A stretch of DNA of 28,602 nucleotides, taken from a virus. Below, piece after piece: positions 3,077 to 18,194 of this stretch. The notes under the pieces were generated by a model. That model was not told the origin of the DNA. It made no database searches and saw only the letters and a program-made list of their open reading frames with translations. Position 1 is the stretch's first letter. Every line of letters begins with the position of its first letter. The translations under genes and the position numbers were made by a program. Where the stretch lies: IMG/VR virus record IMGVR_UViG_3300042894_004804, positions 1 through 28,602 of that record. The stretch is one strand, 5' to 3'.

Positions 3077-4503
3077 TGAGATACCAAGAGAGAATATACA
3101 TACAAAATGATAACGGTGCTGTTAGAAATAGGGATATATTGAATGTTAATATGAGTTCAGATATTTCTGTTTTCGAAAACCCAATGTTTAATTTAAGTGG
3201 TGCTTCAAAAATCGATTGCAGCAGAAATACTGGTACAACATATGTTATAACTACAGCAACAACAATACCATTAACTTTCCAATTTACAGCCAATACCAAT
3301 TCATTCACAGCAAATTCAGCTACATTCAAATATGAAATATATAAATATAATACGGATGCTGAAATGTTCTACATTCCACCTATGTATAAATCTGAAGTAT
3401 TACAATATTCTGGTTTTAGTGCAACAAGTGCGACAACTCAAATAATACCATTAAGTGGTTTATCTTTGGATGGTGAATACTTAGTTAAAGGATATTTTGA
3501 ATTCAATGTTTCTAGTGAATATATGAATAAATTAGGTAAAACTGTGGATACATTACTATATAGAAGTGGTTCTGAATATGGGTTATATGATGGAAATGAT
3601 GACTTTTTCTTTAGAGCTATAAAAGCAGCTGAAGTTCCAATATTCCAAACAACAACGGATAATGTTATCCCAGCTAAAGGGATAAATCAATTAATAATAT
3701 TCCCAGAAGCTAAAATAACAAATATTGTAATACCTACAACAATTGTTGGCAATGTGTTAATAACTCTTAACGGTCTAATATTGGCTAAAAACTACGATTA
3801 TGTAGTTAATGGTGATATCATAACACTTTCTGGTGAAACAGTCTCAGATGACATAATAACGATTATTTCTGGTACTGATGGTGTTGCTAATAACTTACAA
3901 GGTGATACGATATTCATATCGGTCCCAATTGTTAGTGGTTCAACAAATGGTGAAGGTACCAATAGAGCATATTATAATTCTGAAACTGATAAGTACGAAA
4001 TTTATACGAATGTAACACCTACAGAAACTAACACGATGATTGTTATGATAAATGGTGCTACATTAGCGAATGGTATTGATTATTATCAATCAACAACAAA
4101 TCCAAATAGAATTATACTAGAAGGGGATTTATTATTGGATGATATAATTACATTAGCATATTACGCTAAAACAAACGTTGTAAATGGTATTTACACAAAC
4201 AGACCATTAGTGTCATGGACATTAAAAACAGCACCAGAATTAAATAATGGGTTTTTCTCATTGGAAGTAAGTAGTGGTAAAACATTTAGTAATTTATATT
4301 ATAGTGGTAACACACCTTATATTGTTGGTCATCCAGCTTATAACGATACATTTACAGCAACGGGTACTGTTGGAACTACACTATACTATAGAGTCAAGAA
4401 TAGTAAAAATTATAAAACTATATGTGGTGATATAATCAATGATACTACATATAGTGAAATAATACCAATTATAATACAAACGAATTCAATAAATTCGTAC
4501 TAA
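3076..4503 (+). CDS. Tail fibre/baseplate adhesin-like structural protein
   Basis: This 475-aa protein contains two tandem beta units at about residues 227-264 and 321-362. Each has the pattern hhhxLNGxxLxxxxDYxxxxxxIxLxxxxxxDDIITL. Such LNG...DY...DDII repeats are typical of phage tail fibre and receptor-binding proteins, where they form small beta-sandwich modules. The rest is Ser/Thr/Asn-rich and strand-like. Its start codon overlaps the upstream stop by one base, so it is in the same operon as the 82-aa gene. A host-recognition or fibre-attachment role in the virion is likely. The specific ligand cannot be read from the sequence. Confidence 0.6.
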   Translation: MRYQERIYIQNDNGAVRNRDILNVNMSSDISVFENPMFNLSGASKIDCSRNTGTTYVITTATTIPLTFQFTANTNSFTANSATFKYEIYKYNTDAEMFYIPPMYKSEVLQYSGFSATSATTQIIPLSGLSLDGEYLVKGYFEFNVSSEYMNKLGKTVDTLLYRSGSEYGLYDGNDDFFFRAIKAAEVPIFQTTTDNVIPAKGINQLIIFPEAKITNIVIPTTIVGNVLITLNGLILAKNYDYVVNGDIITLSGETVSDDIITIISGTDGVANNLQGDTIFISVPIVSGSTNGEGTNRAYYNSETDKYEIYTNVTPTETNTMIVMINGATLANGIDYYQSTTNPNRIILEGDLLLDDIITLAYYAKTNVVNGIYTNRPLVSWTLKTAPELNNGFFSLEVSSGKTFSNLYYSGNTPYIVGHPAYNDTFTATGTVGTTLYYRVKNSKNYKTICGDIINDTTYSEIIPIIIQTNSINSY

Positions 4504-4519
4504 TATTATTTACTATTGA

Positions 4520-4528
4520 ATATTTATA
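4520..4528 (+). promoter_or_regulatory. TATTTATA-type box (candidate phage promoter)
   Basis: ATATTTATA followed by ACTAAAATAA lies 32 bases before the ATG at 4561, in the short gap after the adhesin gene. The right flank matches that of the box at 27771 (ACTAAAC). It is the first of two copies in this gap. Confidence 0.4.
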
Positions 4529-4547
4529 ACTAAAATAAGATAAAAAC

Positions 4548-4556
4548 ATATTTATA
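4548..4556 (+). promoter_or_regulatory. Second TATTTATA-type box before 4561
   Basis: ATATTTATA preceded by AAC ends 4 bases before the ATG at 4561. Its flanks (AAACATATTTATA) match those at 2816. Two copies 28 bases apart in one 57-base gap is more than expected by eye, though the genome is very AT-rich. Confidence 0.4.
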
Positions 4557-4560
4557 ACAT

Positions 4561-4636
4561 ATGAGTTACATTATAAAAAATACAAATCCATTCGTTAGTA
4601 TTAAATTAACGGAGAAAGGTCGTGAACAATTAGCAC
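4561..4636 (+). pseudogene. Displaced 5' end of the tail gene now at 5550
   Basis: The first 25 codons of this frame encode MSYIIKNTNPFVSIKLT and then GRE-x-LA. They match the first 25 codons of the tail gene at 5550 at 22 of 25 residues and 61 of 75 bases, without gaps. Similarity stops abruptly after GCAC at 4636, where endonuclease sequence begins. It is best read as the original gene start, cut off when the endonuclease cassette inserted near codon 25. It still has upstream box motifs and an intact ATG, and it is in frame with the endonuclease, so it may be translated as a fused leader. Confidence 0.75.
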
Positions 4637-5562
4637 TTTTCTGGTTTCGTGTATATTTATTAGTAAATAAAAATATGAGTAAAAAATTAACAAATGAAAC
4701 GTTTATTGAAAAAGCAAAATTAATTCATAACAACAAATACGATTATTCTTTAGTTGACTACAAAAATAATAAAACAAAAATAAAAATAACATGTCCAACT
4801 CACGATATATTTGAACAAGAACCAAATAGTCATTTAAGGGGTTATGGTTGTTTAAAGTGTTCTGGTGTTAATAAAACAACCGAATCTTTTATAAAAGAAT
4901 CAGTTAATTTACATAACAACAAATACGATTATTCTTTAGTTGACTACAAAAATAATAAAACAAAAGTTAAAATAATATGCTCAGTTCATGGCACGTTTGA
5001 ACAAGAACCAAATAGTCATTTAAAGGGTCATGGTTGTTTAAAGTGTTCTGGTAGACAATTAAACAGTGAAGAATATATTAATAAAGTTAAAGAAAAACAC
5101 GGTAATAAATATGATTATTCATTAGTGAATTATAAAGGTTCGTTTAAAAAGATAAAAATAATTTGTCCTATCCATGGTGAATTTGAACAATCTTCAGATA
5201 AACATATTAAAGGTCATGGTTGTTTATTATGTAAAGAATCAAAAGGTGAGCGTGAGATAAGGGTTATTTTAGAAGATTATAAAATTAAACACATACAACA
5301 ATATGTTTTTAGTGGTTGTAGGGATAAATACCCATTACCATTTGATTTTTACCTCCCAGAGTTGGATATATGTATTGAATATGATGGTAGACAACATTTT
5401 GAAATAATTGATAGATGGGGTGGTGTTAATGGTTTAATTGACCAAGAAAAAAAAGATAATATAAAAAATAAGTTTTGTCTTGAAAATAAGATAAAATTAA
5501 TTAGAATTTCATATAAAGAAAAAATAAAAAATAAATTAAAAGAAAACTTATGTCATATATAA
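4561..5562 (+). CDS. Homing endonuclease, zinc-finger repeats plus Vsr/PD-(D/E)XK-like nuclease
   Basis: The frame is 333 codons, but its first 38 are a tail-gene fragment plus a short linker. The native start is probably the ATG at 4675 (295 aa). From that start there are three roughly 62-residue repeats containing KYDYSLVxYK. Each carries a CxxH...CxxC zinc site (C40/H43/C59/C62, C102/H105/C121/C124, C164/H167/C183/C186), the DUF723-like treble-clef arrangement common in phage endonucleases. The C-terminal domain has FDFYLPE (223-229) and E-Y-D-G-R-Q-H (235-241), as in Vsr-like homing nucleases. The family would cut a tail-gene allele lacking the insert so that repair copies the cassette. 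The last 13 bases overlap the start of the restored tail gene at 5550. Repeats 1 and 2 share a perfect 54-base stretch, indicating recent duplication. Confidence 0.85.
   Translation: MSYIIKNTNPFVSIKLTEKGREQLALFWFRVYLLVNKNMSKKLTNETFIEKAKLIHNNKYDYSLVDYKNNKTKIKITCPTHDIFEQEPNSHLRGYGCLKCSGVNKTTESFIKESVNLHNNKYDYSLVDYKNNKTKVKIICSVHGTFEQEPNSHLKGHGCLKCSGRQLNSEEYINKVKEKHGNKYDYSLVNYKGSFKKIKIICPIHGEFEQSSDKHIKGHGCLLCKESKGEREIRVILEDYKIKHIQQYVFSGCRDKYPLPFDFYLPELDICIEYDGRQHFEIIDRWGGVNGLIDQEKKDNIKNKFCLENKIKLIRISYKEKIKNKLKENLCHI
4726..4965 (+). repeat. Perfect 54-base direct repeat inside the endonuclease gene
   Basis: Positions 4726-4779 and 4912-4965 are identical over 54 bases, 186 bases (62 codons) apart. 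Further near-identical stretches follow, such as the FEQEPNSHL region. The repeat corresponds to the first two zinc-finger units of the endonuclease. A third, diverged unit follows. Confidence 0.9.
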
Positions 5563-7697
5563 TAAAAAATACAAATCCATTTGTTAGTATTAAATTAACT
5601 CAGACTGGGCGTGAAATGTTAGCACAAGGAAAACTTAATTTTACATATTGGGCTATCGGTGATTCTGAACTTAATTATAATAGAGAAGCTATCGTAGATG
5701 CAGCAATTAATGTTGGTGATACTACACTTAGTGAAACTAGTAAAATACTAAGACCATTAGATAGACAACCAAATTTTAAATCGTATATTACTCCAAGTAA
5801 TGCAGCAACACCTTATCAAGATTTAACTAACACTAACTTAAATGTTATAAAAGCTGTTGTAAATAATCAAGCTGAAGAAAGAGGTTTTTTTACTTATTCT
5901 GGTGGTAATTATACAACAAAATCTACTGAAACTTATGTTGCTTTCACTAATTTAATAAGTAATTTAATATTAGATGGAACAACAAATTTAAATATTGGAC
6001 CAACATCGGCATTTACAATTGGTGATATAGTTTTGATTAAGGTAGCTAATGATTATTCTGGAACTATAATACCAGATGAGAATACTAGACCGTTACCAAA
6101 TCTATGGTTTAAAATACAAGATATTATTGATATGTATAACATTACTATCGATAGAAATTTACCTAATTATTCTAGTTTCACTGGTAATTCACAAGTATTT
6201 GTTTATAGAGGTGGTGAAGTATATGATACGATAGCTACTGGAAACACAACTGCATATTGGGATTCTGGAACACTTTCATTCGATTCAGCTTCAAACATTA
6301 CATGTCATGATGTACCAGTTTGGAATATGAATAATGTTTGGTGTGAAGATTTAGCTGGTGTAACTGGTTTAACAAAAACTAAATTGTATGAAAATTACAC
6401 TAAATTTGGTTCTTATACTTATTTGGGTGAGAAAAACCCATACTTAGAATATTTATGTCAAAGCACTGCTACCACATTATCTTTTAGTTGTAATGGACCT
6501 GGGATTAGTTATCCAGATGATATTAGTAAATCAGTGTCAATCATTCATTATACTAATAACACTATTTCTAACCTATATGGTGAATTTTTCTATGTAGATA
6601 CACAAAATGGTAAAACGGTTAGTATTGTTATGCCAGACCTTATGTATCATAGAAGTGCTTACGCAACTGAAAGTGGTACTACAATGGGTATGAAATTTAC
6701 AGCGAGTGGTCTGACACAATATATTGGTACTAGTGATATTGAATACATGGATTTATATGAGGATTCTTCATATCTTTCAAATTCAGCAACACCAATGGTT
6801 GTTGGTAGAGTATATCCACAATTAAAAACTATTGTTTTACACGATGATGAGATAGTGGCTGCTACATCTTACAAATCAAATAGAAATTGGACACTTCCAG
6901 AATTATCTGCAACGATTTCTTCACCTTCTGGTGGTACTTCTACTGGTATTTTACCTATAAACAGTACAATCTATTTAACTTATAGCCTTGAAAATGAAAT
7001 AGGAACTGGTTTAACTTCTAGTATGCCTTGTCAGAAATATGTAAAATTAACAAACGAATCAAATACTGCTAAGGATGTAGCATTTAAAATCAATTCAACT
7101 GATTTATTACCATTTATGCGTAAATATGAATCGGCTACATATGATGGTTACGGTTTTTACGCTAAGAAATTTAAATTATTATACCAAATAATTCCAGACT
7201 CAACAACTAGACCAGATGCTGGTTCATGGAAACAAGTTGATTTAACCTCAACAGCTATTACTGGTGTTTCTGGTGAAACTATTGACCCTAAATTACTTGA
7301 AGGTCAAGTACCATCAACAACTGGTTTTGTTTTAGACATGATAAATGGTGCGACATCAACTACTTTTGACCTTATCAGTTTATTAAATTTAGCTGCTAAT
7401 ATGACACCAGATGCATTACAATTTGGTGATGAAAGATTATTTTATGGAAACTTAAATACATACATTGGTGCTACAATATATAAAACAATTTTTAATGTAA
7501 ATGTAAATTCATCAACATTTAACTCTACTACAAATCCAACTAGAAGTAAAGATATGTCAACTAACCCACCTAATATTAAGATTAGTGAAGTTGGTATTTA
7601 TGATACTGATAAAAATCTAGTATGTGTTGGTAAAGTAAGTACACCAATCACTCTTGCATCAAACACAATAACAATTGAACTTAGTATGGATTTTTAA
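5550..7697 (+). CDS. Tail/baseplate protein with restored 5' end
   Basis: This 715-aa virion protein is paralogous to the next gene. Both begin with a KLTxxGRxxL motif followed by GDSxxNYN (residues 38-45 here), and both end with a SEVGxYDxxxNLxxxxK segment. The C-terminal segment resembles that of phage tail-fibre/collar proteins (EIGLYD-type), which suggests a baseplate or fibre-anchoring role. Its first codons overlap the end of the endonuclease gene by 13 bases. The first 25 codons are a diverged duplicate of 4561-4635, so this 5' end was probably brought in with the endonuclease. Having no separate promoter visible, it probably depends on transcription and translation through the endonuclease gene. 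Confidence 0.75.
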   Translation: MSYIIKNTNPFVSIKLTQTGREMLAQGKLNFTYWAIGDSELNYNREAIVDAAINVGDTTLSETSKILRPLDRQPNFKSYITPSNAATPYQDLTNTNLNVIKAVVNNQAEERGFFTYSGGNYTTKSTETYVAFTNLISNLILDGTTNLNIGPTSAFTIGDIVLIKVANDYSGTIIPDENTRPLPNLWFKIQDIIDMYNITIDRNLPNYSSFTGNSQVFVYRGGEVYDTIATGNTTAYWDSGTLSFDSASNITCHDVPVWNMNNVWCEDLAGVTGLTKTKLYENYTKFGSYTYLGEKNPYLEYLCQSTATTLSFSCNGPGISYPDDISKSVSIIHYTNNTISNLYGEFFYVDTQNGKTVSIVMPDLMYHRSAYATESGTTMGMKFTASGLTQYIGTSDIEYMDLYEDSSYLSNSATPMVVGRVYPQLKTIVLHDDEIVAATSYKSNRNWTLPELSATISSPSGGTSTGILPINSTIYLTYSLENEIGTGLTSSMPCQKYVKLTNESNTAKDVAFKINSTDLLPFMRKYESATYDGYGFYAKKFKLLYQIIPDSTTRPDAGSWKQVDLTSTAITGVSGETIDPKLLEGQVPSTTGFVLDMINGATSTTFDLISLLNLAANMTPDALQFGDERLFYGNLNTYIGATIYKTIFNVNVNSSTFNSTTNPTRSKDMSTNPPNIKISEVGIYDTDKNLVCVGKVSTPITLASNTITIELSMDF

Positions 7698-7699
7698 TC

Positions 7700-8911
7700 A
7701 TGGGATTTAATAACACAGCAACAACTATATCGTTAACAGCAAAGTTAACACCAATAGGTAGACAATTACTTGTCTCAACAAATAATACATTAATTACTAG
7801 TTTTAGTCTTGGTGATTCAGATGCTAACTACAATGCTGTTAACTCATTGGGTAGTGGTCAAGTCCCATCTTTAGGTGGTGAAATAGGACCTAATTCAACA
7901 TTAGGTAATGGAACTAACCCAAATACTAATTTTAGAAGTGTATTGGTTGTTAATACTACTGGTTCATTAACAAAACCAGTTGAAACTCAATCTACACAAA
8001 TAATTAGTGATGTTTTATATAATGGTGTAACAACTGTTTCTGGAACTTCATTGACACAAAATTTAATCGATAGGAATAACAATGCAACAGACCCATTGGT
8101 TAATTTATTTTATTCATTCGGTTTATCATTAGGTTCAACTGAAGATATAAATTATACTGGTGTTACATTTAGTAATGGTGGTTTTTCAGATACAGCACTT
8201 TCTGGTATTGCACAATCAAACATACTAGTTATGGGAATAAATAATGTATCATATGGTGAATTAATTGATGGAAAAACTATTAATTTAAGTTTACCTACCT
8301 CAGCTGGTACGTATAATATTTATAGTACTTATGAAAACAAAGGTAGTTCATTAAATATTGAAGATGCTAATCTTAGAGACACATCTTTAACAACACAATT
8401 TTTAGGTGATAATATAGCCTTGTTATTTTCGGATTCAATCATGAAACCAAATGGTGGTGATGCATCTTTAAGTTGGGGTACTGGTTACAACACTGATAAA
8501 CCTTTCAGTAGTAATGGTAAACAACTATATAATTTAACAACCAATAGTAATATTGCTAAAACAGCTGATACTATAGTTGGTATCGCTTATTTAGATAAAG
8601 GATTCTTGGTTATCACAGACCCAACAATAGTTAATAATATTGGTGGTGTATTAACGGGGGCAACAACAGCGTCTACAGTCACTTTTAATAGCGTATCCAC
8701 TTCAGTGTATCAAAGCATTAATTGTATTGCGGCTAGAGGTGAATTTGGGGCATCTACAAACGTTACGTTTACTGGTAGTGATATCCCTAGATTTAGTGAA
8801 GTTGGGTTATATGATTCTTTTGGTAATTTAATAGCTATGGCTAAGACTGATAGACAAATAAACAAAAATATAAACGAATTTTTAGCATTATCGATAAAAA
8901 TCACGCTTTAA
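7700..8911 (+). CDS. Tail/baseplate protein, paralogue of the preceding gene
   Basis: This 403-aa protein starts two bases after the preceding stop and shares its plan. KLTPIGRQLL lies near the N-terminus, GDSDANYN at about residues 38-45, and SEVGLYDSFGNLIAMAK near the C-terminus. It is shorter, lacking much of the middle of the 715-aa protein. Composition is Asn, Thr, Ser and Gly-rich. The pair probably arose by duplication and occupies related positions in the tail or baseplate. It is the last gene of the structural run, followed by a palindrome at 8931-8952 and then the resolvase. Confidence 0.7.
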   Translation: MGFNNTATTISLTAKLTPIGRQLLVSTNNTLITSFSLGDSDANYNAVNSLGSGQVPSLGGEIGPNSTLGNGTNPNTNFRSVLVVNTTGSLTKPVETQSTQIISDVLYNGVTTVSGTSLTQNLIDRNNNATDPLVNLFYSFGLSLGSTEDINYTGVTFSNGGFSDTALSGIAQSNILVMGINNVSYGELIDGKTINLSLPTSAGTYNIYSTYENKGSSLNIEDANLRDTSLTTQFLGDNIALLFSDSIMKPNGGDASLSWGTGYNTDKPFSSNGKQLYNLTTNSNIAKTADTIVGIAYLDKGFLVITDPTIVNNIGGVLTGATTASTVTFNSVSTSVYQSINCIAARGEFGASTNVTFTGSDIPRFSEVGLYDSFGNLIAMAKTDRQINKNINEFLALSIKITL

Positions 8912-8930
8912 GACTTTATTTTTTCGTAAG

Positions 8931-8952
8931 GTTTTATACATTGGTATAAAAC
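8931..8952. promoter_or_regulatory. Perfect 9-bp inverted repeat between structural and replication blocks
   Basis: GTTTTATAC and GTATAAAAC are perfect reverse complements separated by a 4-base loop (ATTG). No T-run follows on the + strand, so it is a poor intrinsic terminator. It sits 10 bases before the resolvase ATG, which suits an operator or an mRNA hairpin controlling that gene. Confidence 0.45.
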
Positions 8953-8962
8953 AAAGAATTAT

Positions 8963-9622
8963 ATGTCAAAAGAACCAGAATTTTTATTAGCATTGGATGT
9001 GTCAACAAGTTGCATAGGTATTGCGTTATTCCAAGATATGGGTGACCATGGTGAATTAAAATTATTACACCATGTATCACCAAAAGTTAAACCACAACCA
9101 CAAAGTAAGATGGAAGAATTGTTCCGTAAGGTTGAAATATTTGAACAAGAATTTTTAGCTAATTATAGTGACTTTGGTATTACTAAAGTTGTTATTGAAG
9201 AACCATTATTACAATCAAATAATGTGTATACTATTGCAACTCTTTTACGTTTTAATGGTATGATATCAAAATCTGTTTACGATACAGTTGGTGTTGTTCC
9301 AGATTTTATTTCATCATATGATGCACGTAAATATGCATTCCCAGAATTAATGGCAATTAGAAAATTTAAAAAAGATGGTACACCATTAACTGAAAAAGTC
9401 ATTGCTAAAAATACACCAGTATTATTTGGTGATTATTCTTTTGATGTTGATAAGAAATATGTGTTATGGGAAAAGGTTGCTGAATTAGAACCACAAGTAG
9501 CTTGGTTTTACGATAAGAAAAACAAACTCAAAAAAGAAACATTTGATACTTCTGATGCGTATGTAGCTGGTATTGGATATATGCAAAAAAATGAGTTATG
9601 GAAAGTGAAACAAATAAATTAA
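8963..9622 (+). CDS. RuvC-like Holliday junction resolvase (RNase H fold)
   Basis: This 219-aa protein begins with a first RNase H-fold strand, LALDVSTSCIGIALF (catalytic Asp12). A second acidic strand, KVVIEEPL, follows (Glu79/80), and a C-terminal DTSDAYVAG (Asp195, Asp198) completes the acidic cluster. This order and spacing fit RuvC-type resolvases, which bind and cut four-way DNA junctions with divalent metal. In phages they resolve branched concatemers during recombination or before packaging. The length is somewhat above bacterial RuvC (about 170 aa). The start is the first ATG after a palindrome, with an A-rich leader. No TAnnTTTG promoter is visible directly upstream. Confidence 0.8.
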   Translation: MSKEPEFLLALDVSTSCIGIALFQDMGDHGELKLLHHVSPKVKPQPQSKMEELFRKVEIFEQEFLANYSDFGITKVVIEEPLLQSNNVYTIATLLRFNGMISKSVYDTVGVVPDFISSYDARKYAFPELMAIRKFKKDGTPLTEKVIAKNTPVLFGDYSFDVDKKYVLWEKVAELEPQVAWFYDKKNKLKKETFDTSDAYVAGIGYMQKNELWKVKQIN

Positions 9623-9849
9623 TTGATAATACAATTGATGAAGATTTGATTATTGTCAAATCAGTTGTTGATTTTCACATTACATATTTTGAGTTAAATT
9701 ACACATTAGAATTAAGGAATCAAACAATACTAGATATTTTTGATATGGTTAGAAAGAAATACATTGCAACCAATAATTCAAAGTATTATTCAGACAAACG
9801 TACAACCATAAATTTATTGGTTAAATCTTTTATTTTAAAAAAATTCTAA
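9598..9849 (+). CDS. Small hypothetical protein overlapping the resolvase end
   Basis: This 83-aa product has no recognised family. Its ATG lies 25 bases inside the resolvase gene in another frame, indicating translational coupling. The protein is charged, with alternating Ile/Leu/Phe and Lys/Asn, probably helical at its C-terminus (TTINLLVKSFILKKF). No signal peptide or membrane segment is seen. It precedes the primase promoter. Confidence 0.5.
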   Translation: MESETNKLIDNTIDEDLIIVKSVVDFHITYFELNYTLELRNQTILDIFDMVRKKYIATNNSKYYSDKRTTINLLVKSFILKKF

Positions 9850-9856
9850 TAAAAAG

Positions 9857-9887
9857 TTGTAAAATCAATAATAAATTAGTAATTTTG
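9857..9887 (+). promoter_or_regulatory. Bacteroidetes-type promoter for primase
   Basis: TTG at 9857-9859 and TAATTTTG at 9880-9887 are separated by exactly 20 bases, fitting the Bacteroidetes consensus with TAnnTTTG at -7. The primase ATG at 9892 is only 4 bases beyond the box, so the mRNA may be leaderless or nearly so. Confidence 0.8.
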
Positions 9888-9891
9888 CGGT

Positions 9892-10848
9892 ATGTCAGTA
9901 TTATTAGTAGATATACTCGAAGGTTTTCTAGGTGAAAACAGAAAACACAATGAAGATACTGGACAAATCTCTTTTGATTGTCCAGCGTGTTCGTATGAGA
10001 AAAATATGTTCGAAGGTGATGGTAAAGGTAACTTAGAAATAAACTATAATAGAAGTGTTTTTCACTGTTGGTCTTGTGGTGAGGTAAACAACATGCAAGG
10101 GCCAGTTACCAAACTAATCAAAAAATACGGTTCACAAAAAAATTTACGTGATTACTTACTATTAAAACCAGATGCTGACACCATGGTTGGTAAAGAACGT
10201 AAAGAAGTTATTGTTGAATTACCAGAAAGTTATAAAAAGTTATCCGAATCCACATCCAAAAATTTTAAGTATGATATGGCCATGACATATCTAAGAGAAC
10301 GTGGTATTACAGATGATATAATCAAAGAATTTGATATAGGTTATACTATCAAGGGTAAACATTTTAATAGAATTATTATCCCATCTTATGATAGTGAAGG
10401 TAAATTAAATTATTTTATCGCTAGATGGTTTGCAAAAGAGAAAACCAAATTAAAATATTTAAATCCAGATGTTGAAAAACAAGAAATAATTTTCAATGAG
10501 TCTAAAATTAATTGGGATGCTACAATATATCTTGTTGAAGGTGTTACTGACCATATAGTAGTACCGAATTCAATACCAATGTTAGGTAAATACATATCAC
10601 CAATCTTGTTAGAAATGATTTATGATAAATCATCATCTAATATTGTGGTGTTATTAGATGATGATGCACTAAAAGATGCGATACACTTATACAAACAATT
10701 AAATTTTGGTGATTTATACGATAGAATTAGAATATGTATCCCACCAGAAGGGTATGATGTTAGTTTAATAAATCAAGTATATGGGTCAAAAGGTGTTATT
10801 AAATTGCTTAGAACAACAAGAAAGTTAAAATATGATGAGTTAAATTAA
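9892..10848 (+). CDS. dnaG: DnaG-like DNA primase with a replaced C-terminus
   Basis: The 318-aa protein has an N-terminal zinc-binding domain (C30-x2-C33 ... H58-C59-x2-C62) and a Toprim catalytic core (VEGVTD with Glu216, and DDD at 256-258). It would make RNA primers for phage replication. It lacks the helicase-interaction domain of bacterial DnaG, as expected for compact phage primases. From about codon 284 (PEGYD onward) the 3' end has a diverged twin at 11451-11557, beyond an inserted HNH gene. The last 34 residues therefore probably arrived with that endonuclease. The gene ends 9 bases inside the convergent HNH gene. A host-type promoter lies immediately upstream. Confidence 0.88.
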   Translation: MSVLLVDILEGFLGENRKHNEDTGQISFDCPACSYEKNMFEGDGKGNLEINYNRSVFHCWSCGEVNNMQGPVTKLIKKYGSQKNLRDYLLLKPDADTMVGKERKEVIVELPESYKKLSESTSKNFKYDMAMTYLRERGITDDIIKEFDIGYTIKGKHFNRIIIPSYDSEGKLNYFIARWFAKEKTKLKYLNPDVEKQEIIFNESKINWDATIYLVEGVTDHIVVPNSIPMLGKYISPILLEMIYDKSSSNIVVLLDDDALKDAIHLYKQLNFGDLYDRIRICIPPEGYDVSLINQVYGSKGVIKLLRTTRKLKYDELN

Positions 10849-11409
10849 GTTATCCTTTTTAATATCTCTATTTATTTTACTACACAATGGTTGAAGATTC
10901 GTATAGTGATTCAATCTAATCACATCTTCTTCAGTTATAGCTGAAGATATTGGTATAATATGGTCTATATCCCAACCATGGTTTAATTCACCATTATATT
11001 TACCTTTATTACCCCAATCCATCCATGTTTCAAACTTTGATTCTAGATATGACTTGAATTCATTAAATGAGCAACCAAGTATGGTAATAGTTTTTGAGTT
11101 TTTATCGAACCCTTGTCTTTTTATTGAAACACCAATTAAGTTTCTAATGTTTTTAATCATTTTAAATAATGGGTCAATCTCCATTCTATTTTTTTCGTAT
11201 TCTCTTTTATATGTATTAATTTTCTCTTTATTATTTAATGCGTATATTTTTTGGTTTTCATTAATTTTTTCTTTATTTTTATCTCGATATTTTTTATTAT
11301 TAATTTTTTTATTTTTATTTTCTTTATTTTGTAAAATTAATTTTTCTTTATTATTTTCATAACGTTTTTTGTTATGTGCTTTTTTATCTTCTGGGTTCTT
11401 ATAAGGCAT
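10840..11409 (-). CDS. HNH homing endonuclease inserted at the primase 3' end
   Basis: The 189-aa protein has a Lys/Asn-rich N-terminal half with repeated NKEK-type units (about residues 13-75), common in DNA-contacting arms of phage HNH proteins. A C-terminal HNH nuclease follows: GWDIDHIIP (Asp149, His150), then HYTNLQPLC and KINRDIKK with Asn171 and Asn180. ILGCSFNEFKSYLE before it is typical of the same family. It is on the minus strand and its stop lies inside the last codons of the primase. The displaced primase end lies just upstream of its start. A TATTTATA box (11423-11430, minus strand) precedes it. It probably cuts primase alleles without the insert. Confidence 0.88.
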   Translation of the reverse strand: MPYKNPEDKKAHNKKRYENNKEKLILQNKENKNKKINNKKYRDKNKEKINENQKIYALNNKEKINTYKREYEKNRMEIDPLFKMIKNIRNLIGVSIKRQGFDKNSKTITILGCSFNEFKSYLESKFETWMDWGNKGKYNGELNHGWDIDHIIPISSAITEEDVIRLNHYTNLQPLCSKINRDIKKDNLI

Positions 11410-11422
11410 TTATATGTTTTAA

Positions 11423-11431
11423 TATAAATAC
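11423..11431 (-). promoter_or_regulatory. TATTTATA-type box upstream of the HNH gene
   Basis: On the minus strand this reads GTATTTATA followed by TTAAAACATA, ending 13 bases before the HNH ATG. The right flank is nearly identical to that of the + strand box at 25834. The box keeps its orientation relative to the gene, which supports function. Confidence 0.45.
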
Positions 11432-11450
11432 ATATAATTTACTTAAAAGT

Positions 11451-11557
11451 CACCAGAAGGTTATGACCCATCTAAATTGTTTGAACAATATGGGTCTAAG
11501 GGTGTAGTTGCTTTACTTAGAACATCCAGAAAATTAAATTATAATGAATATAGTTAA
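11451..11557 (+). pseudogene. Displaced original 3' end of the primase gene
   Basis: In frame, this segment encodes PEGYDPSKLFEQYGSKGV and then LLRTSRKLNYNEYS before a stop. It aligns without gaps to the last 34 residues of the primase (21 of 34 identical). Both copies are exactly 107 bases from CACCAGAAGG to the stop. It has no start codon and no upstream coding sequence, so it is a relic cut off by insertion of the HNH cassette. Its stop overlaps the end of the convergent minus-strand gene, probably the arrangement the primase had before insertion. Confidence 0.85.
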
Positions 11558-12720
11558 TTCAACGGTTCAATAGATATAACATCAACACCTCTACCTTTAT
11601 TTTTAAGGGTTATTTCTTTTTCATTAGGATATAATGCATTATTATCCATAGTAGTTTTTATATCCACCAAAGATTTTTTAGCATCTACAGTCGCCAAGAA
11701 GTATTTTTTACCTTTTAAAAAGCTGTGTGTTCTTAATAGATTATTTTTATCCATTGAATAATGATAACCTAAGAATGTTGTATCGATATCTTCTATTGAA
11801 TCAGCAACAAGTATTCTGTATAATCTAATCACATCTGGTAATTTAGCCATAAAAGTAACCTTATCGGATTTCTTAGCTTTCTTTGGTTCAAAAAAATCCA
11901 TATCATCATAATCAAAATCATCATAATACTCAGTTAATGAAGGTTCTTCAAATTCTTGTTTTTGTGGAACAACACTTGGTTCAGTTCTATCGATTGGTTT
12001 ACTTATAATTGGATTTTCAGCTTGTGATTTAGGAACTAAAACCTTATCAACAATCACATAATTATCATCATCAATTAGACCTACCCTTGTGTAATCAAAA
12101 CCTTTTAATATAGCTATTTTTTGTTTAGGGTAAGAATTAGTTACTATTGTTGTTGATGCTTGTCCAACCACTTCAGTAAACAACGCTGGTATTGCTGCAT
12201 TAGGTGCCATTTTAGCGTGTAAATTATAACAAGCTATTTCACCCTTAGCACCAAAATCATGATTACCTAATATATGAGCAATGTAATCATGAACACTTCT
12301 AAATACAATATTATCTTTAACACTTAATATAGGGTGTTCAGAATAATCCATACTAATTTTAAGTATACCAGTTTCATTGAATGAATTTTTCATCTCACTT
12401 TGAGTATTATACTCATCACCAAGTTCTGCTAATTTAACTTTATAAAGTTTACCATTTATTTCAATAGAACCAACTTTATTCTTATCTGAAGTTATGAAGA
12501 TTAAATTAACCTTTGATAAGATTCTATTAAATAATGTATAATTAGATTGATTAAGAGCATTCCAAGCGTTTACAACACTAGCATCGAAGTCTGGTGCTTC
12601 AGCATAAGCCTTAGCTACCAATTGAATATATAAATCCCAATCTTTAAGCATTAATTTCTCTTTCAATAACGCTTCGTTTAATTTTTGTTTTATAAAATTT
12701 TTCATATTACTATTTACCAT
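11554..12720 (-). CDS. ADP-ribosyltransferase-like protein with putative capsid-targeting peptide (Alt-like)
   Basis: The C-terminal hundred residues of this 388-aa protein show an R-S-E ADP-ribosyltransferase plan: LYRIL (Arg302), GYHYS (Ser322) and YPNEKEITL (Glu367-x-Glu369). Such enzymes move ADP-ribose from NAD to arginine in target proteins. Residues 140-200 form a second domain, with HDYIAH (144-149), GE (160-161), His168 and Glu183, whose function I do not recognise. An acidic linker (about 255-280) joins them. The N-terminus, best read from Met6, is MKNFIKQKLNE followed by A. This resembles the T4 internal-protein capsid-targeting peptide cut after x-x-E by prohead protease. Like T4 Alt, it may be packaged and injected to modify host proteins such as RNA polymerase. 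A TATTTATC box precedes it. The target is unknown. Confidence 0.7.
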   Translation of the reverse strand: MVNSNMKNFIKQKLNEALLKEKLMLKDWDLYIQLVAKAYAEAPDFDASVVNAWNALNQSNYTLFNRILSKVNLIFITSDKNKVGSIEINGKLYKVKLAELGDEYNTQSEMKNSFNETGILKISMDYSEHPILSVKDNIVFRSVHDYIAHILGNHDFGAKGEIACYNLHAKMAPNAAIPALFTEVVGQASTTIVTNSYPKQKIAILKGFDYTRVGLIDDDNYVIVDKVLVPKSQAENPIISKPIDRTEPSVVPQKQEFEEPSLTEYYDDFDYDDMDFFEPKKAKKSDKVTFMAKLPDVIRLYRILVADSIEDIDTTFLGYHYSMDKNNLLRTHSFLKGKKYFLATVDAKKSLVDIKTTMDNNALYPNEKEITLKNKGRGVDVISIEPLN

Positions 12721-12733
12721 ATAATATTTTATA

Positions 12734-12742
12734 GATAAATAC
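12734..12742 (-). promoter_or_regulatory. TATTTATA-like box upstream of the ADP-ribosyltransferase gene
   Basis: On the minus strand this reads GTATTTATC followed by TATAAAA, one mismatch from the TATTTATA core. It lies 13 bases before the ATG at 12720. It overlaps no coding sequence and shares the gap with the divergent host-type promoter at 12743-12773. Confidence 0.35.
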
Positions 12743-12773
12743 TTGCATGTAAGTTAAAAAAATGGTATATTTG
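12743..12773 (+). promoter_or_regulatory. Bacteroidetes-type promoter for the recombination operon
   Basis: TTG at 12743-12745 and TATATTTG at 12766-12773 are separated by exactly 20 bases. A run of twelve A residues (12778-12789) follows just before the ATG at 12792, the A-rich initiation context typical of Bacteroidetes. It probably drives genes from 12792 to 18194. Confidence 0.8.
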
Positions 12774-12791
12774 TAATAAAAAAAAAAAATA

Positions 12792-13574
12792 ATGAGTAAA
12801 GCGAAATTATGGGTTGGTCCAGTTTACCTTGAACCAATAGAACATAAATATCATCATAGGGAAACTGGTAAAACATATAAGTCGGTAACTACGACACTTT
12901 CATCCATTGAACCTCATTTTGATTCTGAATCTGTTTCATTGGCAATATTTAATCAATTAGATAACGCAAAACAAGAACGTTACGTTGGTTTGTCACAACA
13001 AGAAATACTTGATTTTTGGCAAAAATTAAATGATGATGCTAATATATATGGGTCAAAAGTCCATGATATAGTTGAGCGTTATTTATTAGCTAATAAATGG
13101 TATTTTCCAGATGAGTCAGAAGATGGGTTATTTGAACAAAAAGTTATTGAAGGTTATGAAGCATTGAAGATTAATGAAGGTATTGCTATGTGGCCAGAAA
13201 GAATCCTTTTTTCTGAAGAATATGAGTTAGCTGGTATGTCGGATTTAATAATAGATATAGACCCAATTTTCTTTGATGTATGGGATTGGAAAACAAATAG
13301 AGTATTTAACTTCTTCAATGAATTTGGTTATCAGACACTTTTTAAACCATTTGACCACTTACAAGCATGTCAATGGTCAATTTATACATTACAGTTATCT
13401 GTGTACGCTTATATGTACGAATTAGAGCACCCAAATCGTAAATGTCGTCAAATATGTGTTGGTTATTGGGATAAAGAGAAAATGTCATTCGAAAAGATTC
13501 AAATAATGTATTTAAAACACGAAGCTAAAAAACTTATTGAAATGCACCACTATAACATAATGAAAAACGCTTAA
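12792..13574 (+). CDS. RecB/Cas4-like PD-(D/E)XK exonuclease
   Basis: This 260-aa protein carries the motifs of the RecB-type nuclease superfamily in order. YGSKVHDIVERYLL (His91) is first, then ELAGMSDLIID (Asp151), DVWDWKTNR (Asp165-x-Lys167), and a late QLSVYAYMYE helix (Gln201, Tyr205). These residues bind metal and catalyse phosphodiester hydrolysis. In phages, members act in recombination or replication-end processing. It opens an operon with the gp47- and gp46-like genes, which fits a role in DNA end processing. There is no iron-sulphur cysteine cluster visible, so it is closer to phage PDDEXK exonucleases than to Cas4. The start follows a host-type promoter and an A-run. Confidence 0.8.
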   Translation: MSKAKLWVGPVYLEPIEHKYHHRETGKTYKSVTTTLSSIEPHFDSESVSLAIFNQLDNAKQERYVGLSQQEILDFWQKLNDDANIYGSKVHDIVERYLLANKWYFPDESEDGLFEQKVIEGYEALKINEGIAMWPERILFSEEYELAGMSDLIIDIDPIFFDVWDWKTNRVFNFFNEFGYQTLFKPFDHLQACQWSIYTLQLSVYAYMYELEHPNRKCRQICVGYWDKEKMSFEKIQIMYLKHEAKKLIEMHHYNIMKNA

Positions 13575-13575
13575 T

Positions 13576-13911
13576 ATGTTCAAAACTGGTAAAGACTTAA
13601 AATTAGGTGATACAATTTATTACGTTGATGATAAAAATTTTACTATAGTAGAGTTAATGATTGAAGGTCTTGAATTAAGTATGGGTAGTTGTGAATACCG
13701 TGAAATAAAAAGTGAATGGAATGGTATTCGATTAAGTTTCGGTAAACAATGGGAGAAAAAACCAGAAATTATTAATGATGGAAATAAATCTGTTGGTTTT
13801 GGAATTTTTATTTATATAGAAGATGCTATTTTTTCTTTAAATGAATATATTAATAAAGAAGTTGAAAAACTTAATGGACAAATAAAAAGATTAAACGGAT
13901 ATAAAAAATAA
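13576..13911 (+). CDS. Hypothetical protein in the recombination operon
   Basis: This 111-aa protein starts one base after the exonuclease stop. LKLGDTIYYVDD near the N-terminus looks like a small beta-barrel opening, and the C-terminus (EYINKEVEKLNGQIKRLNGYKK) is probably a short coiled coil. No membrane segment or catalytic motif is seen. Its position between two nucleases suggests an accessory role, but no function can be assigned from the sequence. Confidence 0.6.
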   Translation: MFKTGKDLKLGDTIYYVDDKNFTIVELMIEGLELSMGSCEYREIKSEWNGIRLSFGKQWEKKPEIINDGNKSVGFGIFIYIEDAIFSLNEYINKEVEKLNGQIKRLNGYKK

Positions 13912-13917
13912 TTATAA

Positions 13918-14730
13918 ATGGTAAAGAAAATTATACACATGGCTGATATTCATATCAGAACAATGAGACTACATAATGAGTATAAAGAGGTTTTTAGAAA
14001 CCTATATAAAGACATTATCGAGTTGGTTGAAGGATATGAAAAGGATGAAGTTAGAATACTTGTTGCTGGTGACTTGGTTCATCAAAAGATTGTTATATCA
14101 AATGAACAACTTATGTTAGGGACATGGTTTCTAAGAAAATTGGAAGAGATAGCACCAGTTATAGTTATCGCTGGTAACCATGATTTATTAGAGAATAATA
14201 AAGACCGTATGGATAGTATCACACCAATGGTACAATTCTTACCAGATGCAAATATAAATTATTTCAAAGAGTCTAAATGTTATTTGGATGACAATATTGT
14301 TTGGTGTGTATATTCAATATTTGAAGATAATAGTAAACCAGATATTGAAAGTGCTAGAATTGAATTTGGTGATGATAAAACATACATTGGGTTGTTCCAT
14401 GCACCAATAATGAATGCTAAAACAGATATTGGTTATGATTTTGACCATGGTGCTGGTTTAGATATATTTGAAGGGTGTGATATTGTTATGTTAGGTGATA
14501 TACATAAAAGACAATCATTTATCCATAAAGGTATTCCAATTGCTTACCCATCAAGTCTTATTCAACAAGATTTTGGTGAAAACGTTACTAAGCATGGTTT
14601 TTTGTTTTGGGATATTGAATCAAAAACATTTACAGAACATGATGTTGATAATAGATTTCCTTATTATCAATTTAGAATAAAATCACTTGAAGATATTGAA
14701 AGTGGTTCTGAGAAAATTACTAATTTATGA
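13918..14730 (+). CDS. gp47/SbcD/Mre11-like recombination nuclease subunit
   Basis: This 270-aa protein has the metallophosphatase motifs of the Mre11/SbcD family. They are DIHIR (Asp10, His12), AGDLVHQ (Asp52), GNHD (87-89), His161 and GDIHKRQ (Asp194, His196). With the gp46-like ATPase encoded downstream it would form the Mre11-Rad50-type complex that resects DNA ends for recombination-dependent replication. It is shorter than T4 gp47 (about 339 aa) and ends soon after the phosphatase core, so it has little or no capping domain. An ATGA overlap joins it to a GIY-YIG-like gene. I found no displaced C-terminal fragment nearby, so the short end may be native. Confidence 0.88.
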   Translation: MVKKIIHMADIHIRTMRLHNEYKEVFRNLYKDIIELVEGYEKDEVRILVAGDLVHQKIVISNEQLMLGTWFLRKLEEIAPVIVIAGNHDLLENNKDRMDSITPMVQFLPDANINYFKESKCYLDDNIVWCVYSIFEDNSKPDIESARIEFGDDKTYIGLFHAPIMNAKTDIGYDFDHGAGLDIFEGCDIVMLGDIHKRQSFIHKGIPIAYPSSLIQQDFGENVTKHGFLFWDIESKTFTEHDVDNRFPYYQFRIKSLEDIESGSEKITNL

Positions 14731-15242
14731 TTATTACTTATTTAATGGAAGCCAATGGTTTATACAAGATTGGAAAAACGGATAATATAGATAGAAGATA
14801 CAAACAAATAAGAGCCAATAACCCGACACTTATTTTAATTGGTATTTCAGAAATACCAGAAATTGAATTACATAATAGGTATAGTAGACATAGGATATTA
14901 GCTGTTAATGAAAACTCTGGTAAAACAAGTAGAACCGAATGGTTTAGAATACCAGAGTTTGAATTAGAAGAATTAATTAACTTATTCACACCATACTTAA
15001 TAGAGGAAAGTGTTGAAAGTATAGACTATTCATTAGAGATAGATAATGGTTTAGAAATCATAAATGATATTGCTAAGGAACTTTTAGATAACTTCAACCA
15101 AAACTCAGCTATTGAATTTTTAGATTCTACATATAAAACATTAAAACCAAATCGATTAGAAAAATTACTTAGTCAGTATGAAAATGTTAAAAAATTAAAA
15201 ATGAAGATAAATGAAGTTAACAGAATTAAAAACGTACATTAA
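14727..15242 (+). CDS. GIY-YIG-like (T5orf172/MUG113-type) endonuclease
   Basis: The N-terminus of this 171-aa protein reads TYLMEANGLYKIGKT, then DRRYKQI and NNP. This is the T5orf172/MUG113 branch of the GIY-YIG fold, with Tyr13 and Arg23/24 as likely active-site residues. A conserved TEWF (glutamate before the aromatic pair) follows. The C-terminal half is helical and charged and may bind DNA. It starts within the gp47 stop (ATGA) and overlaps the next gene by 32 bases, so it is wedged between the gp47-like and gp46-like genes. It may be a free-standing homing or intron-type endonuclease, but no duplicated flanking exon is visible here. Confidence 0.7.
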   Translation: MIITYLMEANGLYKIGKTDNIDRRYKQIRANNPTLILIGISEIPEIELHNRYSRHRILAVNENSGKTSRTEWFRIPEFELEELINLFTPYLIEESVESIDYSLEIDNGLEIINDIAKELLDNFNQNSAIEFLDSTYKTLKPNRLEKLLSQYENVKKLKMKINEVNRIKNVH

Positions 15243-15450
15243 TAGCATTCCAGCTGATATGGATGACTTTATCATTGTAAATGGTGAGTTCGGATTAGCT
15301 AGAGATGGAAATACTTATGTTATGACAAATAACAAAGTTTTGACGGTATATGTGGATACCAACAACGGAGAAATTCAATTTCTTCACCAAACAGATAAAG
15401 ATGTTAAAGATTTAATATTAGGACTAGATGGAGATACCGAAGAACCTTAA
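15211..15450 (+). CDS. Small conserved-looking protein in the gp47-gp46 operon
   Basis: The product is 79 residues, acidic, with ELKTYINSIP at the start and QFLHQTDKDV near the end. No family is recognised. It overlaps the GIY-YIG gene upstream by 32 bases and the next gene downstream by 23 bases, each in different frames. That dense packing suggests coupled translation. Function is unknown. Placement suggests a role with the recombination nuclease. Confidence 0.6.
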   Translation: MKLTELKTYINSIPADMDDFIIVNGEFGLARDGNTYVMTNNKVLTVYVDTNNGEIQFLHQTDKDVKDLILGLDGDTEEP

Positions 15451-15832
15451 AGATGAGATTTGGGATTATTGTAGAGTCAATGATATCTCAAATATTGATG
15501 AATTTATAATAAAATTAATCAAACAAGGCTTTACTGCTGAAAAATTTGGTTCATCACCAATAGCTCAACCAAAAGATAAAATAATTGAGAAGATTGTAGA
15601 AGTACCAGTTGAAAAGATTGTGGAAGTTATAAAAGAAATTACAGTTGAAAAAGAAGTTTATATAACTGACGATTCACAAACAAAAGAACTATCTGAAAAG
15701 GTAACAAAACTTGAAGGGGAACGTGATTCTTATAAGAAAGATTCTGAACATTTTCAAAAAGAATGGAATAGTACGTTACAAAAGTTAGAATTAGAACGAA
15801 ACAAAAATAAAAGAGATTTTTATGGAGAATAA
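15428..15832 (+). CDS. Coiled-coil protein with a possible ribbon-helix-helix-like N-terminus
   Basis: The first 35 residues of this 134-aa protein (IPKNLKDEIWDYCR ... FIIKLIKQGF) have a helix-turn-helix-helix rhythm seen in small DNA-binding or dimerisation domains. Residues 47-80 contain heptad-like repeats of IVEVPVEKIVEVIKE, and residues 85-130 are a charged coiled coil. It overlaps both neighbours (23 and 11 bases), so it is probably co-translated with the gp46-like ATPase. A scaffold or partner role for that complex is possible but inferred. Confidence 0.6.
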   Translation: MEIPKNLKDEIWDYCRVNDISNIDEFIIKLIKQGFTAEKFGSSPIAQPKDKIIEKIVEVPVEKIVEVIKEITVEKEVYITDDSQTKELSEKVTKLEGERDSYKKDSEHFQKEWNSTLQKLELERNKNKRDFYGE

Positions 15833-18194
15833 TATTGAAACACTAGATAAAACAATGATATCAACACACTCTAAAATTAAAGTGTATTGGGATGATTTAC
15901 CACATAATTACAGTAAAGATAATAAGATTAAAATTAGAAACTATTTTGCTTCTAAATACGGTGTGAATAGGAACAATATTAATGTTGTCTATAGACCAGT
16001 TAAGAAGAATGAAAAGGGTGAATTAATTGAAATTAGTGGTGCTGGTATTGAAAATATCATGGATGTTAATTACCAAAGAGCTCTTATGAAAGAGATTATT
16101 GAAAGAGATGGTAAAGTTATCGATTTTGATAGAATAATAGCTTTGGATAACAAAGTTAATGGTGAGCTAAATGTGGATTTAAATTCTTCACAACATAAAA
16201 CATGGTCAATGAAATGGCTTATGGTTAATAATTTCTTATGTTTTGGTGAGGATAATTATGTTCCATTTTCTAAATTAAAAGGTTTAACAGTTGTTAATTC
16301 AGTTCCAGCTAATCAAGGTGGGAAAACTACATTCACAATTGATGGTATTAAATTCTTGTGTCATGGTACAACAACCAAAACAGATAAGAATGAGCAAATT
16401 TTTAATACATATAGTGATAAAAATGAATTAGTTGTGCGTGGTATGATTGATTTAGAAGGTGATGAAGTCATTATAGAGCGTAAAATGAGACGTTCACAAA
16501 AGAAAACTGGTGAATGGACAGTTACGAATAAAGTTAATTACTATGAGTTATTACCAGATGGTACTGAAAAGGAATTAAATGAGGAAGATGCTAAAGCAAC
16601 TACTAAAAAATTAAAAGAAACTATTGGTACTGAAAAAGATTTTGAGATGCTTGTATTGGCAACTGAAAATAATTTAGATGATTTGATTGGTTTAACAACA
16701 ACAGAATCTGGAAAGATACTTACTAGACTTATTGGTCTGGAAGTTTTAGAAATGAAAGAAGCTGCTGTTAGAACTATGTATAATGAATTTGCTAAAAAGA
16801 AAAAATCTAATGATTTTGATGTGATTACATTAAATCAAGAAATTGATGACCACAAAGAAAAAGGTGTTTTAGCAGTTGAATTAGAAAAAACATTAAATGA
16901 ACGTCTTGAATCAACCAAAAAAGAAATTACTGATTTAAGTAATGAGAATGATAGATTGTTAAATAGTAAAGAAAAAATAGATGTTACTATTTCTGAGCTT
17001 AATCCATCTAAATTAGAAGGTGATATTAAAACAATAACCGAAAATGGTAAAATATTATTAGCTAACTTTAACAAAGTTGTTGATGAAATTAAAGAGATTG
17101 GTGAAGTTAGTTTTGATGAGGACCGTCACCACGAATTAACAAAAGATTTAACAACACAAACATCTGATAAGGCCGTTAAGAGTGCCGAGGTTAGTCGATT
17201 GGAAATAGTTGTTGATGATTTGGTTGCTGGTGGTATTTGTCAATCATGTAACAGAAAATTAGATGATGTTGATAACTCTGAACACATAGATGGTCATAAA
17301 AAACAAATCGAATTAATCAAAAGTGATGTAACCAAATTAGGTTTATTAATCAAAAGTATCAATGAAGAATTAGAATCTTTAAACACTATCAAAGAAGTAA
17401 TCGATAATAAAAATAAATTAGAATTAAGTAGAGATAGAATTGATGTTGAAATTGGTGCTTTAAGAAACGATGTTTCATCTAAGATGAATGAACTTAAGAA
17501 GTATAAACTTAACAAAGAAGCTATTGAACTAAACAAAAGAGTTGATAGTGAAGTTGAGAATGTTAAAACTAAATTAGTTGTTTCTAATAGAACCAAAGAT
17601 GATACAATAACCAATATTGAAAGAGTTGGTAATGATATTAATTTAAATAAATCTTCAATTGAGATTAAAAATAAATTGATTGAAACAATTAAAAAAGAAG
17701 AAGAGGTAGAAAAAGTATTTAAGGTCTATATTGATTTGGTGGGTAAAAAAGGTATTAGTAAATTAGTATTACGTTCAGTATTACCAATTATTAACTCTGA
17801 GGTTCAAAGATTATTAGAAGATGTGTGTGATTTCGAAATCGAGATATTTATGAATGATAAGAATGACGTTGAGTTTTTAATAATCAAAGATGGAGTATCT
17901 AAATTATTGAAATCTGGTAGTGGGTTTGAAAAAACGGCATCTAGTTTAGCATTGAGAGGTGTACTAGGTAAAATATCCACATTACCAATGCCTAATTTCA
18001 TCACATTTGATGAAGTGTTAGGTAAAGTAGCACCAGAAAACATTGAAAAACTTAAACCATTGTTTGATAAAATAAAAGATATGTATGATATTGTATTCTT
18101 AATTACGCACAATGACTTGGTTAAGGATTGGGCAGATAACGTTGTTACAGTTGTTAAAGGTAATGATAATATATCAAGCTTAAATTTAAAATAG
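15822..18194 (+). CDS. gp46/SbcC/Rad50-like recombination ATPase with an N-terminal extension
   Basis: This 790-aa protein is longer than T4 gp46 (about 560). Residues 1-125 form an extra domain (IKVYWDDLPHNY, KYGVNRNNINVVYRPV) before the ATPase lobe begins. The P-loop at 162-169 reads P-ANQG-GKT, with Pro where the first Gly is usual. Long coiled coils flank a zinc hook CQSC (Cys473, Cys476). The ABC signature is SGSGFEKTASSLAL (from residue 698), Walker B is ITFDE (Asp730, Glu731), and a switch histidine lies in FLITHND. With the gp47-like nuclease it would process DNA ends for recombination and replication. It closes the operon that starts at 12792. Confidence 0.88.
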   Translation: MENNIETLDKTMISTHSKIKVYWDDLPHNYSKDNKIKIRNYFASKYGVNRNNINVVYRPVKKNEKGELIEISGAGIENIMDVNYQRALMKEIIERDGKVIDFDRIIALDNKVNGELNVDLNSSQHKTWSMKWLMVNNFLCFGEDNYVPFSKLKGLTVVNSVPANQGGKTTFTIDGIKFLCHGTTTKTDKNEQIFNTYSDKNELVVRGMIDLEGDEVIIERKMRRSQKKTGEWTVTNKVNYYELLPDGTEKELNEEDAKATTKKLKETIGTEKDFEMLVLATENNLDDLIGLTTTESGKILTRLIGLEVLEMKEAAVRTMYNEFAKKKKSNDFDVITLNQEIDDHKEKGVLAVELEKTLNERLESTKKEITDLSNENDRLLNSKEKIDVTISELNPSKLEGDIKTITENGKILLANFNKVVDEIKEIGEVSFDEDRHHELTKDLTTQTSDKAVKSAEVSRLEIVVDDLVAGGICQSCNRKLDDVDNSEHIDGHKKQIELIKSDVTKLGLLIKSINEELESLNTIKEVIDNKNKLELSRDRIDVEIGALRNDVSSKMNELKKYKLNKEAIELNKRVDSEVENVKTKLVVSNRTKDDTITNIERVGNDINLNKSSIEIKNKLIETIKKEEEVEKVFKVYIDLVGKKGISKLVLRSVLPIINSEVQRLLEDVCDFEIEIFMNDKNDVEFLIIKDGVSKLLKSGSGFEKTASSLALRGVLGKISTLPMPNFITFDEVLGKVAPENIEKLKPLFDKIKDMYDIVFLITHNDLVKDWADNVVTVVKGNDNISSLNLK

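Follow-up and report, generated by a model that had tools for sequence, protein, structure and literature searches.

The stretch of viral DNA analyzed here, which we call the window, comprises 28,602 nucleotides of IMG/VR record IMGVR_UViG_3300042894_004804 (positions 1 to 28,602). Its plus strand carries a gene for a DnaG-type primase (9892–10848), identified by Pfam DNAG_N and by a match to phrog_47 (DNA primase). The final 107 bases of this gene (10742–10848) have a gapless twin on the same strand at 11451–11557, hereafter the orphan tail, and a minus-strand endonuclease gene lies between the two copies. The twins are identical at 74/107 nucleotides (~69%), whereas the next-best ungapped match to the primase tail in the whole window reaches 53/107, or 50 on the opposite strand. 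They agree at 22 of 35 codons, stop included, with 24/35, 27/35 and 21/35 identities at the three codon positions. The edges of homology are sharp: the inner edge is CACCAGAAGG, which occupies 11451–11460 in the plus-strand orphan copy, and the outer edge is the stop codon, TAA in both copies. The stop of the orphan tail overlaps by 4 nt a convergent minus-strand gene of 388 amino acids (11554–12720), which we interpret as the normal right neighbor of the native primase end. The same structure recurs on another IMG/VR contig (72,646 bp) that is 99.99% identical to the window over 16.9 kb, which argues against an assembly error; together with the match statistics, this rules out chance or misassembly as the origin of the twin tails.

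Most of this arrangement had been described in an initial annotation made without database searches, and our analysis bears it out: the 107-base gapless twin, the common start and terminal stop of both copies, the minus-strand HNH gene ending inside the intact copy and the overlap of the orphan with the downstream gene. The 21 of 34 matching residues given there are consistent with our count of 22 of 35 including the stop. The convergent gene had been called an ADP-ribosyltransferase, a label that found no backing in Pfam, where no family scored above cut-off, or in PHROGs, where the only matches (including phrog_3170) are of unknown function.

The gene between the tails (10840–11409, minus strand) overlaps the intact primase tail by 9 nt and encodes a 189-aa protein that matches phrog_1035, endonuclease VII (E = 1.9e-6). 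Its Pfam HNH match falls below the cut-off (16.8 bits), and no solved structure matches its profile. The catalytic motif is intact: D-x-D-H-x-x-P and H-Y-x-N-x-x-P-L-C-x(3)-N are invariant across 20 homologs, with D147, D149, H150, P153, H168, N171, C176 and N180 as the invariant residues. The gene is stand-alone: the window and its twin contig have it, whereas the relatives surveyed lack it immediately downstream of the primase. None of the HNH homologs was located at a primase with twin tails, and no second carrier of the primase cassette was found. A relative of the protein, 59% identical, sits within a 5′-end replacement of an unrelated gene (L326:10220–12149), indicating that one HNH family acts at two different targets.

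Two in-frame tails that start at the same codon could suggest an intron, or some other spliced or programmed element for switching between alternative primase tails. The upstream tail closes with a stop codon, however, and the HNH gene, which overlaps that tail, is encoded on the opposite strand. Rfam searches of window positions 4000–16000 returned no intron family even at E values up to 1, and by the same searches no group I or group II catalytic RNA core surrounds the HNH gene. We dropped the intron reading for lack of an Rfam match and attach next to no credence to tail swapping in general.

To judge which of the two tails is native, we fetched fifty-odd primase relatives and scored both tails against 32 main-clade and 6 outgroup primases. 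In a tree of primase bodies, the body of the window's primase (9892–10741) falls in the main clade. Main-clade primases score the orphan tail higher in 27 cases and the in-frame tail in 4, with 1 tie, whereas all six outgroup primases score the in-frame tail above the orphan. The best placement of the in-frame tail is beside the outgroup primase L048, and that of the orphan is beside the main-clade primases L014 and L021. The initial annotation had predicted both orphan-like tails in uninvaded relatives and discordant descent of the primase body and its in-frame tail, and these patterns match it on each count. Its further prediction, that uninvaded relatives carry a single tail set against a convergent gene, was borne out in many relatives. 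Uninvaded relatives have a single primase tail, after which comes either an exonuclease gene directly or any of several convergent genes, and the same 4-base overlap of the primase end on a convergent gene recurs in eight contigs (L017, L019, L024, L029 and L031–L034), but the convergent gene itself differs. A twin tail is absent from all relatives that could be read through the primase 3′ end, except the near-identical record.

Several features limit the power of this comparison. The relatives share ancestry, so the 27, 4 and 1 are not independent counts. Placing the tails on the body tree favors the orphan by ~6 log units, but equal differences are common when the tails of relatives are swapped, and we therefore give the likelihood result little weight. 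Moreover, the primase bodies of the relatives are all at most 73% identical to that of the window, with no close relative among them, so that the native copy must be judged on 34 residues. As far as an alignment of this length allows, with only moderate power, the native tail is most likely the orphan, and the tail now in frame is most likely foreign. The interpretation that an insertion displaced the real primase tail and supplied a diverged one is thus supported, within the limits of those 34 residues and the weak likelihood calibration. An affinity scan along the primase, using a comparison group picked post hoc, suggests that the foreign tract may start ~10–15 codons upstream of the homology edge (residues 273–296); conversion may begin a few codons upstream of 10742. 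No donor carrying the in-frame tail together with the HNH gene was found, the core motif of either tail occurring in no other viral contig.

The slot between the primase and exonuclease genes is a hot spot for cargo, holding varied convergent or codirectional genes or none (11554–12720 in the window; L014–L060). Separately, the exonuclease gene that follows the primase bears an in-frame insert, intein-like in some relatives (L006, ~9960–10990; L031, L033 and L046).

Variable cargo would fit the converse assignment of the two tails, in which the in-frame tail would be native, and the HNH gene, the orphan tail and the 388-aa gene would have been imported together from another phage by exchange at the conserved tail, with the endonuclease marking the boundary. 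Homologs of the 388-aa gene do occur away from a primase, and nuclease genes often lie at the boundaries of phage–phage exchange according to one study (PMC10448857), in which a term search revealed no duplicated gene ends. This import scenario is difficult to reconcile with the 27-to-4 preference of main-clade primases for the orphan, the in-frame tail being consistently preferred only by the outgroup. It also conflicts with the cases in other phages described below, and we consider it unlikely. We therefore return to the reading in which the orphan is the displaced native end.

The window contains a second case, at a baseplate-like tail gene on the plus strand (5550–7697). The first 75 bases of this gene (5550–5624) match 4561–4635 at 61/75 nucleotides and 88% of 25 residues, and an endonuclease gene (4675–5562, plus strand; Pfam DUF4379 and DUF723; phrog_559) lies between the copies. 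The upstream copy (MSYIIKNTNPFVSIKLTEKGREQLA) is in frame with the endonuclease. Relatives lack the DUF723 insert, and blastn places the junction at 4629|5545. In 7/7 relatives the stranded 5′ copy outscores the in-frame copy, marking 4561–4635 as the displaced native end and 5550–5624 as its replacement. The tail-gene case (4561–5624) is a mirror image of the primase case, with the 5′ rather than the 3′ end replaced.

Other endonuclease genes occur in the same phage. Just beyond the right end of the window is a third cassette, in which a GIY-YIG enzyme lies between two copies of the 3′ end of a gene that starts near the window's end; the copies agree at 88% of 41 residues (L209:15286–16613). 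We also considered a T5orf172 (GIY-YIG) gene at 14727–15242 as a further case in the window and rejected it, as no twin end was seen. This gene lies between a gp47-like gene and the next gene and is absent from the relative L004; no homolog was detected in the viral contigs scanned, the twin record excepted.

The most direct evidence on what moves with such an endonuclease comes from a pair of other phages, G006 and G011, in which one and the same GIY-YIG element occupies a shared host gene. Their endonucleases are 97.4% identical, as are, at 97.6%, the first 85 codons of the host gene, which form the replacement end. Identity is 70.5% over the remainder of the host gene, 72.0% between the stranded 5′ ends and 42% in the upstream flank. 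This contrast indicates that the endonuclease and the in-frame gene end moved jointly and that in either phage the resident end was retained as the stranded fragment. It is the in-frame end, not the orphan, that travels with the endonuclease here, contrary to what import of the orphan would entail.

An endolysin gene in phage G013 allows a test against the window's phage, whose own endolysin is uninvaded and whose endolysin is 90% identical to that of G013 in the body. The stranded 5′ end of the G013 gene scores 157 against it and the in-frame 5′ end 112. The 3′ end of the G013 endolysin is an exception, the intact copy being the one that matches the relative. Several further cases that have relatives also favor the orphan copy as native, again in conflict with the import scenario. 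At one endolysin locus (L335:1364–3340), the gene is flanked on both sides by a GIY-YIG-type enzyme and a stranded gene end, and its 3′ side breaks the rule that the orphan is native.

Stacking was observed as well. In G021 the order is gene, endonuclease, stranded tail, second endonuclease and second, shorter stranded tail, an arrangement expected from repeated homing insertion. On the contig IMGVR_UViG_3300016665_000509, the stack consists of a gene, a DUF723 endonuclease, a stranded tail, a second DUF723 endonuclease and a shorter tail (L227:12425–14992).

How general this organization is was addressed at two scales. Further cases first emerged when 129 endonuclease loci were put through a flank test, and a census of partial same-strand protein duplications covered 19 phage contigs (2.65 Mb). 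Because an unfiltered whole-contig repeat scan was dominated by repeats, we used a filtered census and an ORF-based control in which the same flank test was applied to every ORF of 90–450 aa. Flanking by a shared gene end was found for 19/83 endonuclease-like ORFs vs 16/1,925 others (Fisher p = 1.5e-18; odds ratio 35), and the 16 positives among the other ORFs are largely repeats. The endonuclease set had been partly seeded with census hits; after relabeling without self-matches, 18 of the 19 positives remain endonuclease-like. The enzymes between duplicated ends in the census are of the GIY-YIG, HNH, DUF723 and LAGLIDADG types, and the host genes hit encode a lysozyme-like endolysin, SmpB, a glycosyltransferase, a NUDIX protein, metallophosphoesterases and others (names read from sequence, without Pfam). 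End replacement is thus a general pattern, affecting about a fifth of endonuclease-like genes in the related phages searched, and the general model holds when tested independently in other phages. It is not universal: scans of T4, ICP1, Flavobacterium phage FpV4 and Klebsiella phage KP13-7 revealed no case around an endonuclease, which may explain why work on model phages did not bring end replacement out.

This enrichment also weighs against another origin for the primase arrangement, in which the primase end was duplicated locally in tandem and an HNH gene later inserted between the copies by chance. The arrangement alone, two copies in tandem, would fit such a history. The copies are just 69% identical, however, partial duplications of this kind occur around endonucleases far more often than around other ORFs, and the endonuclease and gene end of G006 and G011 were transferred jointly; we regard tandem duplication as highly improbable.

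Our preferred reading, to which we assign a probability of roughly 85%, is that the primase stretch is an end-replacing homing endonuclease cassette, a mobile unit consisting of a replacement primase 3′ end and an HNH gene. The HNH enzyme would cut the primase gene of an uninvaded phage at a conserved coding motif near CACCAGAAGG, a position inferred only from the sharp break in homology. The break would be mended from a co-infecting phage that bears the cassette, the left arm of repair being provided by recombination within the primase body. On the right, the donor's displaced tail beyond the endonuclease would serve as homology, an inference from a yeast model and from the breakpoints in G006 and G011. 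The recipient's primase would emerge as a chimera ending in the donor's tail, presumably resistant to recutting, while its own tail would be moved beyond the endonuclease gene and remain as a detached fragment against the next gene. The data themselves establish both tails, an intact HNH gene, relatives with a single tail, the kinship of the orphan with these relatives and joint transfer in another phage pair. Cutting and self-transfer by the HNH enzyme, and resistance of the rebuilt gene to recutting, are inferences.

On balance, we favor the broader proposal that large phages host a widespread selfish class made up of an endonuclease and the 5′ or 3′ end of the gene that it attacks, in which the stranded end becomes the next homology arm and homing swaps the ends of essential genes and stacks dead ends. 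Models of phage endonucleases rest on T4, where these genes lie between other genes or split them. End-replacing endonucleases insert into coding sequence yet leave the gene whole, because they supply a spare end, which explains how conserved coding motifs can serve as their targets. Nearby endonucleases make it possible to predict chimeric ends of essential genes, and the inner edges of stranded ends mark likely cut sites. For annotators, short orphan gene ends beside endonucleases are probably displaced native ends.

The free-standing seg and mob endonucleases of T4 lie between conserved genes, and their homing proceeds by break repair that co-converts the flanks (PMC2988022). They are described as intergenic or gene-splitting in that review, which makes no mention of duplicated gene ends, and unlike the window's phage, the T4 genome has no duplicated ends around an endonuclease by our scan. 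We found no account of end-replacing elements in phages in the searchable literature, most subscription journals lying outside our search. The kind of element is known from yeast and mitochondria; its occurrence in phages is apparently undescribed.

The worked-out model is provided by the WHO elements of Torulaspora and Lachancea yeasts, in which a free-standing endonuclease brings along a substitute 3′ end for its target gene FBA1, the old 3′ end is left as a fragment on the far side and stacks on repeated homing, and cleavage occurs slightly upstream of the 5′ ends of the fragments (PMC7282813). The primase locus shares with them a replacement end that adjoins the endonuclease and a displaced fragment on the far side. 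Co-transfer of the replacement end with the endonuclease, as for WHO, is seen in G006 and G011; for the primase cassette no second carrier was found. WHO elements reside in the yeast nucleus, encode an intein-like LAGLIDADG–zinc finger protein and have one main target gene, whereas the phage cassettes use HNH, DUF723, GIY-YIG or LAGLIDADG enzymes against many targets, at 5′ and 3′ ends and on either strand. A WHO-type LAGLIDADG zinc-finger protein is found at neither locus of the window, the enzyme being HNH at the primase and DUF723 at the tail gene. By analogy, the primase cassette appears to work like a WHO element and is not one.

A second parallel is offered by fungal mitochondrial mORFs with C-terminal duplications, in Allomyces atp6 and in Glomus atp6, atp9, cox2 and nad3 (PMC3630166). 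These share with the primase cassette a foreign C terminus in frame with the host gene, followed by an endonuclease ORF and, downstream, the native C terminus. They differ in being mitochondrial, and in the four Glomus cases it is the 3′ end that is replaced, by elements with LAGLIDADG or GIY-YIG enzymes; neither HNH nor DUF723 enzymes nor 5′ ends are involved there. Because the window is a virus record with phage genes, it does not meet the mitochondrial residence of mORFs, to which the primase cassette is analogous in layout without being a member. Phage, yeast and mitochondrial elements, so far described separately, thereby become linked.
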